NCBI RefSeq assembly: GCF_031624395.1
Contig: NZ_JAMQON010000002.1
Span: 124,001 to 188,000 of the forward strand
Origin: Halomicroarcula saliterrae
GTDB lineage: Archaea > Halobacteriota > Halobacteria > Halobacteriales > Haloarculaceae
Direction of reading: 5' to 3'
Length of the DNA stretch: 64,000 nucleotides
In this document: in pieces, positions 36,284 through 39,173 of the stretch
How the letters are laid out: each line of letters begins with the position of its first letter
Position numbering within the stretch: the first letter of the stretch is position 1
Program-made: the position numbers and the translations under genes
Notes under the pieces: model-generated
What the model was told of the DNA's origin: nothing
Databases searched by the model: none
Seen by the model: the letters and a program-made list of their open reading frames with translations, nothing else

Positions 36284-36382
36284 GCCCTCGTCGTGTCTAC
36301 CCCCGTCAGCGGTTCGCCGGCACCCGCCCGCTGTCGCGCCAAACCGAAGTCGTTTAGCCCCCGGTTGGCCCATAGGCAGATA

Positions 36383-36451
36383 ATGGCGCGTCGAGCACCC
36401 GGTTCGCCCGTTCCCGTACCCCGCGTAGTAGGGGTCTCCACGCCCCACTAA
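36383..36451 (+). CDS. putative valine-rich leader peptide before valS
   Basis: A 22-codon frame with ATG at 36383 and TAA at 36449-36451. Five of its residues are valine (positions 10, 12, 15, 16, 18; segment VPVPRVVGV), and three of the five use GTA, an uncommon valine codon in the neighbouring genes. A GTTTAG box at 36351-36356 lies 27-32 nt upstream, so the peptide would be the first thing translated on a leaderless mRNA. It ends 55 nt before valS. Translation is not proven. Confidence 0.45.
   Translation: MARRAPGSPVPVPRVVGVSTPH
36418..36450 (+). promoter_or_regulatory. mutually exclusive hairpins in valS leader
   Basis: Stem A pairs ACCCC (36418-36422) with GGGGT (36431-36435). Stem B pairs TAGTAGGGG (36426-36434) with CCCCACTA (36443-36450), one A bulged. 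Both use the same GGGG, so only one can form. The valine codons lie inside the overlap. No U-rich run follows directly; TTTCT appears at 36476-36480. Confidence 0.45.
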
Positions 36452-36506
36452 TCACACCTCTCGACGCCCGTACCGTTTCTAACTACCCGAAGACCACAGA
36501 TTCGAC

Positions 36507-39173
36507 ATGAGTGACACACAGGACCCACCGACCGAGGAACCGCCAGCCGACGAACAGCTCACTGGGGAGTACGACCCCAACGACATCGAGCCCAAGTGGC
36601 AAGACCACTGGGTGACCGAAGACACCTACGCCTACGACGGGGACGCCGACACCCGCTTTTCCATCGACACGCCGCCGCCCACGGTGTCGGGGAACCTCCA
36701 CATGGGTCACCTCTACCAGTTCACCCTGCAGGACTTCGTCGCCCGCTACCACCGGATGGCCGACGACACCGTCTACTTCCCCTTCGGCTACGACGACAAC
36801 GGCATCGCCTCCGAGCGCCTGACCGAGCGGGAACTGGGCATCCGCCACCAGGACTTCGAGCGCCGGGAGTTCCAGGAGAAGTGCCGCGACGTCTGTGCCG
36901 ACTACGAGGACGAGTTCACCGAGGACGTCCAGTCGCTGGCCATCTCCGTCGACTGGGACAACACCTACAAGACCATCGAGCCGCGCGTCCAGCGCGCCTC
37001 GCAGCTGTCCTTCCTCGACCTCTACGAGCGGGGCCGGGAGTACCGCCAGCGCGCCCCGACTATCTGGTGTCCCGACTGCGAGACGGCTATCTCGCAGGTC
37101 GAACAGGAGGACGAGGACAAGGCCACGAAGTTCAACGACATCGAGTTCGACCTGGTCGCGGACAGCGAGGGCCCCATCACGTGGGACGAGACGTTCACCA
37201 TCTCCACGACGCGTCCGGAGCTCCTGCCCGCGTGTGTCTCCGTCTTCGTCCACCCCGACGACGACGAGAACCAGCACCTCGTCGGCGGCCGTGCCCGCGT
37301 CCCCCTGTTCGAGCAGGAAGTGCCCATCATCGCCGACGAGCGCGTCGACATGGAGACCGGCAGCGGCCTCGTGATGTGCTGTACCTTCGGCGACCAGAAC
37401 GACATCGAGTGGTACCAGGCCCACGACCTCGACCTGCGGCTGGCCATCGACGAGTCGGCGACGATGACCGAGGTCGCCGGCGACTACGAGGGGCTCTCGA
37501 CGACCGAGGCCCGCGAGGCAATCATCGAGGACCTCGACGACGAGGGGTACCTACTGGAGTCCCGGGACCACGACCACACCGTGCAGGTCCACGAGCGCTG
37601 TGGCGTCGAGGTCGAGTATCTCGTCACCGAGCAGTGGTACATCAAGATGCTCGACAAGAAAGACGAGTATCTCGACGCGGGCCGACAGATGGACTGGTTC
37701 CCGGAGAAGATGTACAGCCGCTACGAGCACTGGATCGAAGGCCTGGAGTGGGACTGGTGTATCTCCCGCCAGCGCGACTCCGGGATTCCGATCCCCGTCT
37801 GGTACTGCGACGACTGCGGCGAGCCCGTCTTCGCCGAGAGGGCTGACCTGCCGGTCGACCCGCTGTCGGACGACCCGCCGGTCGACTCCTGTCCCGAGTG
37901 TGGCCACGACGACCTGACGCCGGAGGAGGACGTCTTCGACACGTGGGCGACCTCCTCGCTGACGCCGCTGGTGAACGCCGGCTGGGACTGGGACAGTGAG
38001 GTCGAGGACTTCACGTGGGACAACCCCGAACTCTACCCGTTCGACCTGCGCCCGCAGGGCCACGACATCATCTCGTTCTGGCTGTTCCACACCGTCGTCA
38101 AGTGTTACGAGCACACCGGCGAGGTCCCATTCGAGAACGTCATGGTCAACGGAATGGTGCTGGACGAGAACCGCGAGGCGATGTCCAAGTCCAAGGGCAA
38201 CGTCATCCCGCCGAGCGAAGTGCTGGAGAACTTCCCCGTCGACGCGGCCCGCTACTGGGCCGCCGGGACCTCCATCGGCGACGACTTCCCGTACAAGGAG
38301 GGCGACCTCGAAGCCGGCGAGCGCCTGCTCCAGAAGCTCTGGAACGCCTCCCGGCTGGTCGACCAGCTCACCCCGGCCCAGCGGCCCGACGAGCCCGCGG
38401 CGCTCGCCTCGGTCGACCGCTGGCTGCTGGCCGAACTCGACGCGACCGTCGACTCCGTCACCGCGAAGTTCGAGGACTACGCCTTCTCGAAGGCCCGGAA
38501 CGAGCTGCGCTCGTTCTTCTGGAACACCTTCTGTGACGACTACCTCGAAATCGCCAAACAGCGCCTGAGCAACGGCGGAGACGCCTCCACCGAGTACACG
38601 CTGTTGACGGCCCACCGGACCTTCCTGCAGCTGTTCGCGCCGTTCCTCCCGCACATCACGGAGGAACTGTGGTCGCGGCTGTACGGTGCCGGCGAGTCGG
38701 TCCACACCACCGACTGGCCCGTCGCGGGCGGCTACGAGGCCGACCTCGCGGCCGGCGAGACGGCCATGGAGGTCGTCTCCGCGCTGCGCCGCTACAAGAC
38801 CGAGAACGGCCTGCCGCTGAACGCCGACCTCGACCACGTCGAGGTGTACGGTCACATCGACGGCTTCGAGGACGCGGTCGCCGAGGCGATGCACGTCGAG
38901 CGACTGGACACCTACGAGGACGCGCCGGACATCACCACCGAGATAAGCGGTATCGACCTCGACTACTCCGTCGTCGGCCCCGAGTTCGGCAGCGACGTGG
39001 GCGCCATCGACTCGGGCATCGAGTCGGGCGACTACGAGATCGACGGCGACACACTGGTCGTCGCCGGCGAGTTCGAACTCGGCGCCGACCTGTTCGAGGT
39101 CGAGGAGACACAGACGTACTCCGGCGAGGGCGAGATGACCGAGACGGAGAACGCGGTCGTCGTCGTGCGGTAA
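36507..39173 (+). CDS. valS: valyl-tRNA synthetase
   Basis: An 888-residue class Ia synthetase that charges tRNA-Val and edits mischarged threonine. Signature motifs: HMGH (HIGH-type) in PTVSGNLHMGHLYQF, and MSKSKGN (KMSKS). The editing domain begins near TFTISTTRPELLPACV. Two zinc knuckles are visible (WCPDC, and CDDCGEP with CPECGHD). The C-terminal segment is short, as in other archaeal ValRS. The preceding 223-nt gap contains the leader described at 36383. Confidence 0.97.
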   Translation: MSDTQDPPTEEPPADEQLTGEYDPNDIEPKWQDHWVTEDTYAYDGDADTRFSIDTPPPTVSGNLHMGHLYQFTLQDFVARYHRMADDTVYFPFGYDDNGIASERLTERELGIRHQDFERREFQEKCRDVCADYEDEFTEDVQSLAISVDWDNTYKTIEPRVQRASQLSFLDLYERGREYRQRAPTIWCPDCETAISQVEQEDEDKATKFNDIEFDLVADSEGPITWDETFTISTTRPELLPACVSVFVHPDDDENQHLVGGRARVPLFEQEVPIIADERVDMETGSGLVMCCTFGDQNDIEWYQAHDLDLRLAIDESATMTEVAGDYEGLSTTEAREAIIEDLDDEGYLLESRDHDHTVQVHERCGVEVEYLVTEQWYIKMLDKKDEYLDAGRQMDWFPEKMYSRYEHWIEGLEWDWCISRQRDSGIPIPVWYCDDCGEPVFAERADLPVDPLSDDPPVDSCPECGHDDLTPEEDVFDTWATSSLTPLVNAGWDWDSEVEDFTWDNPELYPFDLRPQGHDIISFWLFHTVVKCYEHTGEVPFENVMVNGMVLDENREAMSKSKGNVIPPSEVLENFPVDAARYWAAGTSIGDDFPYKEGDLEAGERLLQKLWNASRLVDQLTPAQRPDEPAALASVDRWLLAELDATVDSVTAKFEDYAFSKARNELRSFFWNTFCDDYLEIAKQRLSNGGDASTEYTLLTAHRTFLQLFAPFLPHITEELWSRLYGAGESVHTTDWPVAGGYEADLAAGETAMEVVSALRRYKTENGLPLNADLDHVEVYGHIDGFEDAVAEAMHVERLDTYEDAPDITTEISGIDLDYSVVGPEFGSDVGAIDSGIESGDYEIDGDTLVVAGEFELGADLFEVEETQTYSGEGEMTETENAVVVVR

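Follow-up and report, generated by a model that had tools for sequence, protein, structure and literature searches.

A conserved leaderless uORF upstream of haloarchaeal valS as a candidate valine leader-peptide attenuator

The window analysed here is a whole stretch of 64,000 nucleotides from contig NZ_JAMQON010000002.1 of Halomicroarcula saliterrae, and it raises the question of whether the short open reading frame upstream of valS (hereafter uORF) is a translated leader through which the charging of tRNA-Val is sensed. A preliminary description had read the locus as a possible valine-dependent attenuator, with a 22-codon frame holding five Val codons (three of them GTA), a TATA-like GTTTAG ahead of it, a stop 55 nt before valS and two hairpins competing for one GGGG run, and had suggested checking whether frame, Val codons and paired bases are conserved. 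The frame and its promoter were confirmed in the sequence: GTTTAG occupies 36352-36357, the ATG at 36383 lies 26-30 nt 3' of the TATA box, the 22 codons include GTT, GTA, GTA, GTA and GTC for valine, and 55 nt separate the stop (TAA, 36449-36451) from the valS ATG at 36507. The features concerned are the following (positions are those of the window).

36341 to 36357, + strand: BRE/TATA-like promoter AAACCGAAGTCGTTTAG, aligned in the Haloarcula clade as AAACCGAAGTCRTTWAT/G
36383 to 36451, + strand: leaderless uORF (putative leader peptide) MARRAPGSPVPVPRVVGVSTPH*, conserved in 152/181 valS upstream regions
36428 to 36430, + strand: GTA Val codon, the proposed sensing codon, present at this site in 152/152 uORFs
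36476 to 36480, + strand: T-stretch TTTCT in the uORF-valS spacer, possible site of transcription termination (T-stretches are enriched in the leaders)
36507 to 39173, + strand: valS, ORF for an 888-aa valyl-tRNA synthetase, presumed target of the regulation

Homologous places of valS were found in 292/292 genomes of the class searched, and its nearest relatives belong to Haloarcula and Halomicroarcula (85-90% identical), which places the window in the Haloarcula group. The second GTA (36425-36427) is only partly conserved.

The comparison set comprised 181 valS upstream regions (L002-L181 and the window); L155, for which the coordinates were wrong, was kept within this set and counted among the 29 regions without match. 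Because GTAGTA or GTAGG[GC] served as anchor in the search for uORFs, one GTA per uORF is partly imposed. A TATA-preceded uORF with an in-frame GTA was found in 152 of these regions, in many haloarchaeal families and with similar TATA placement across loci, and when the ATG could be chosen in any frame it was in frame with the GTA for 146/152; conservation of both the frame and the Val codons was thus upheld. The circularity of the GTA anchor is answered by two results: the valS regions without uORF match have no GTN-GGGG hairpin with a synonymous GTN codon (the only two GTNGTNCG matches there are isolated and do not show the leader layout), and a scan picking the uORF by TATA score alone, without codon anchor, returned GTA in 127/148 valS uORFs. 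GTA accounts for 47% of uORF Val codons (one per uORF being imposed by the search) versus 71/3613 Val codons (2%) in the valS reading frames.

Alignment of 17 close relatives displayed a conserved BRE/TATA followed by an ATG 26-30 nt after the TATA, a uORF starting with ATG-NNN-CGY-CGA, a conserved GTAGTAGGGG or GGTGTAGGGG, and conservation of the other stem arm and of CTCGACGC. In L003 about 80 nt are inserted within the uORF with the frame kept, and single-base codon changes in the uORF of Haloarcula s.s. were 7 synonymous versus 1 non-synonymous. Among uORFs ending in V-F-V-G (45 distinct sequences), the third base of the first Val codon is free (T 30, G 12, C 2, A 1) and both TTC and TTT are used for Phe; GTA is the only codon for the last Val, where the search anchor fixes it. 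The penultimate codon of the Haloarcula s.s. uORF is GGT, which was counted against an attenuator. From these comparisons, the valS uORF is real and its substitutions look coding; its translation is inferred from this coding signature and from frame conservation, without ribosome data.

Blind scans were performed for the same layout before other synthetase genes. For thrS (Natrialbaceae and two further families), 30 leaders carry a leaderless uORF (e.g. MVGVRFTGAFARF or MAGVYFTGRSTAK) with a GC hairpin 3' of its TTT-ACA; these uORFs often carry GTA at codon 2 besides ACA, which was also counted against the attenuator. For trpS, a TGG-CGC-TGG uORF is present in 13 leaders before two TrpRS types (MVSTPADGWRWHVRRVDSFAVPVRRA in the window's own genome), and the stem around these codons covaries (137 bp in sum for own pairs versus a permuted mean of 110, 0/3000). 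For pheS, uORFs ending in a GFGFFFA-like Phe cluster were found in 7/8 genomes (MAPESTRAGVARQPAVSSGFGFFFAF in the window's own genome), several of them 26 aa long. When no codon anchor was used, at least two TGG occurred in 10/17 trpS uORFs versus 1/148 for valS, and the Phe cluster in 3/4 pheS uORFs passing the promoter filter and in none elsewhere. No consistent cognate uORF was found by the blind scan for leuS (both types), ileS, serS, proS and tyrS (6-17 genomes each).

Several further details of these leaders were recorded. The thrS leaders (L200, L201, L230-L257) have an invariant ACA in the uORF, and L231 and L251 have GGCAGGTGTC/GACACCTG-like pairs in place of the GGTAGGTG/CACCTACC helix. 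The trpS leaders (L290, located at G000:C3 near 10194 on the minus strand, L286-L288 and L316-L324) have leaderless uORFs with TGG-CGC-TGG within the covarying stem, and a downstream TCCGCTTTCTC, followed by a T-stretch, could pair with the 3' arm of this stem. In the pheS leaders (L350, located at G000:C3 near 7504 on the minus strand, L345-L349 and L351), some Phe codons form TTCTTTTTC, which resembles a T5C terminator, and conserved GACGAAACCG and CCGTTAACTGAC come after it.

The codons of the leader ORF therefore match the downstream enzyme (GTA for valS, ACA for thrS, TGG for trpS and TTY for pheS). This tracking of synthetase identity is considered as strong comparative evidence that charged tRNA is sensed, and a cognate-codon rule holding in four systems is best explained by ribosomes reading the tRNA charging state. 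A constitutive brake on valS, in which the translated uORF would slow ribosomes without sensing valine charging, remains conceivable since a rare GTA and a GC hairpin would do so at any valine level and no response data exist; such a brake would have no need of codons matched to the synthetase in four systems, and it is regarded as unlikely. Transcription of leaders of this kind has independent experimental support from mapped transcripts of Haloferax volcanii, in which a 23-aa uORF precedes the tryptophan-tRNA ligase gene HVO_A0127 and a 26-aa uORF precedes pheS HVO_2948 (Babski et al. 2016, PMC4983044 Table 2; sequences were not compared). These uORFs are listed there as small proteins, and neither attenuation nor codon bias is discussed (PMC4983044).

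The uORF precedes two divergent ValRS types (about 40% identical to each other), which indicates that the leader goes with the role of the gene and not with one enzyme lineage. The second type, found in Halobacteriaceae and relatives as well as in several genera of the window's own family, is preceded by a much shorter uORF of 9-13 codons (e.g. MGLMSSVVR, MRVGSTVVRV, MSAIRSVVR), with GTA-GTA-CGN in nearly all cases. The conserved translation signature would also suit a functional microprotein made with the synthetase; the peptides are alike only in the Val region and otherwise vary widely in length and sequence (from MALMSSVVR to 48 residues), which makes this reading highly improbable. No uORF element was found in Haloferacaceae, where valS is simply leaderless; the element is thus dispensable, a point counted against the attenuator. 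A haloarchaeal family of leaderless leader-peptide attenuators that reads the charging of tRNA-Val, -Thr, -Trp and -Phe, controls the matching synthetase genes in most families of the order, and is retained or re-evolved when a synthetase is replaced by a divergent type, is probable on these grounds.

Variation in the valS leaders themselves was noted in three places. Within genus g4, G138 and G282 differ from the other genomes in ValRS type (about 40% identity), so that valS was replaced and a GTA leader either retained or regained. Natrinema hispanicum DSM 18328 and Haloterrigena sp. H1 (L017, L023) carry an insertion, about 330-150 nt ahead of valS and bounded by the inverted ends TCAGGGCGGACGTAA / TTACGTCCGCCCTGA, that interrupts the element between its GTA and its GGGGC; the element is intact in another N. 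hispanicum strain (L020). In the last 150 nt of the Natrialbaceae valS leaders (L018-L058), the stretch TTTCGACGGATGTATTG..TTCACCGAGCAACGACC is additionally conserved, and a Shine-Dalgarno-like GGTGA precedes valS; the complementarity of TCACCG to CGGTGA suggests a second, translational layer.

Single-sequence folding of the window was unremarkable (z -0.7 to -1.7), and the structural case therefore rests on comparison. This result, together with the many open frames of GC-rich DNA, would be compatible with a chance ORF within a GC-rich leader; all comparative tests speak against it, conservation already refutes it, and it can practically be dismissed. Two helices were delimited.

36426 to 36450, + strand: hairpin P2, UAGU-(A)-GGGGU / GCCCC-ACUA, directly 3' of the GTA codons, 98.7% of cells paired
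36388 to 36395, + strand: 5' strand of long-range helix P1, GCGTCGAG, uORF codons 2-5, 93.4% of cells paired
36460 to 36467, + strand: 3' strand of P1, CTCGACGC, pairing with GCGTCGAG in 93.4% of cells

Covariation supports the P2 core (GGGG 36431-36434 / CCCC 36443-36446); an outer stem (UAGU 36426-36429 / ACUA 36447-36450) lies around the bulged A, and the compensatory changes in P2 are UA-GC and AU-UA. P1, which is conserved and had not been mentioned in the preliminary description, shows a compensatory UA-CG change in L010, L013 and L014. Taken together in the Haloarcula clade, P1 and P2 have 96.2% paired cells versus 89.2% in shuffles, 15 double-change cells versus 4.8 (0/500 shuffles reach 15), and a covariation score of 0.187 versus at most 0.064 for slid versions. 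Conservation of paired bases was thus borne out, and both helices overlap the uORF and covary; mutual exclusion with a second state was not established. Of the two hairpins said to compete for the GGGG run, the downstream one covaries, while the upstream one (CCCC 36419-36422 with GGGG) can be drawn in the window and was rejected, the C-run being shortened or deleted in relatives (alignment A1).

Short uORFs show greater complementarity to the spacer of their own leader than to spacers from other genera (genus-level permutation, 3/5000). An ungapped-leaning score was used for this purpose; an earlier duplexfold scoring tolerated long bulges and had little discriminating power. Short-uORF leaders with a preserved GTA-GTA either lack the hairpin that directly follows the codon or have a different one. 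Bacterial ThrRS uses a structured-leader operator, and with this precedent and the covarying P1 and P2 in mind, the leader could be conceived as a non-coding operator bound by ValRS or tRNA, the ORF being incidental; such an operator has against it the frame and synonymous-change signature, the loss or alteration of the post-codon hairpin just described, and the switch of the codon to ACA, TGG or Phe with the enzyme, and it is considered quite unlikely.

The element is likely a leader-peptide attenuator for valS, ribosome-mediated, codon-specific and with a leaderless start, this judgement being founded on sequence comparison. In the proposed mechanism, the transcript would begin at the uORF ATG or adjacent to it, and a ribosome would load on this leaderless start. 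When Val-tRNA(UAC) is scarce, this ribosome is inferred to stall at the rare GTA codon, so that P2 could not close and the surrounding mRNA would fold differently; for short uORFs the stalled ribosome itself, and for long uORFs a queued one (also inferred), would cover the 5' segment of the uORF and block P1. The footprint of a stalled ribosome is about 30 nt. The footprint of a single stalled ribosome does not extend to P1 in Haloarcula (42-45 nt from ATG to GTA), which was counted against the attenuator, and a queued ribosome would be needed there to cover the 5' strand of P1. With P1 and P2 blocked, RNA polymerase would pass the T-stretch into valS, or valS expression would be otherwise raised; when Val-tRNA is plentiful, the ribosome would finish the uORF and leave, P1 and P2 would form, and most transcripts would end in the leader. 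The uORF, its frame, the GTA codon, the helices, the T-stretch and the cognate-codon exchange before thrS, trpS and pheS are the parts established by comparison; stalling, queue, sign and readout are inferred, no expression, 5'-end or ribosome data being available for this genome, and the sign (more valS when Val-tRNA is scarce) comes from logic and not from data. The valine-dependent attenuator originally put forward is accordingly supported by the frame, the Val codons and the paired bases, regulation itself remaining to be demonstrated.

As regards the readout, a T-stretch is present in 38/46 short-uORF leaders versus 4.5 expected and in 68/96 longer-uORF leaders versus 14.8 expected; it is not universal, which was again counted against the attenuator. 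Intergenic terminators of Haloferax are T stretches, and transcription terminates at C (PMC7237163). This fit with archaeal biology and the enrichment suggest transcription termination as the readout, which itself was not demonstrated. Masking of the valS start received little support as a readout: modelling of a stalled ribosome barely shifted start openness, from 0.59 to 0.57 for short uORFs (not significant) and from 0.46 to 0.48 for long ones (p 0.0002), i.e. by at most 0.02 on average. A scan for sigma-70 promoters and bacterial terminators, not suited to archaea, gave no match.

For transcription-translation coupling in bacteria, leader-peptide attenuation is a textbook example. The bacterial attenuators (trpL, hisL, ilv/ivbL, pheL) likewise combine a short leader ORF with clustered cognate codons, a downstream amino-acid gene and overlapping RNA helices; their terminator before the structural gene has only a candidate counterpart here. 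The present leaders differ in being archaeal, in a leaderless 5'-end start without Shine-Dalgarno site for the leader, in having one rare codon (GTA or ACA) or a codon pair where the bacterial leaders have long runs, in an archaeal T-stretch instead of a hairpin with U-run, and in having the synthetase itself as target; as long as functional data are lacking, they cannot be assigned to the bacterial class. T-box riboswitches also place synthetase genes under tRNA-charging control, whereas the codon here lies within a frame inferred to be translated, and an Rfam scan of the whole 64-kb window returned no family at gathering threshold, T-box covariance model included. The E. coli thrS operator, a tRNA mimic, likewise belongs to a structured synthetase-gene leader; the present leaders have a conserved uORF, inferred to be translated, that carries cognate codons, no tRNA likeness was found (not tested in depth), and ARAGORN, which does not address mimicry, detected no tRNA gene within the window. 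No archaeal precedent for leader-peptide attenuation was found in the full-text literature (open-licence papers only); to our knowledge none has been demonstrated, amino-acid-sensing switches of this type being known so far only from bacteria. The long 5'-UTRs of Haloferax volcanii likewise contain a 26-aa uORF before pheS and a uORF before trpS, in a dRNA-Seq study that judged structured-leader control not typical of haloarchaea (PMC4983044). As one leader plan occurs naturally with Val, Thr, Trp or Phe codons, the system makes archaeal coupling, stalling on leaderless mRNA, and termination versus translational readout directly testable.
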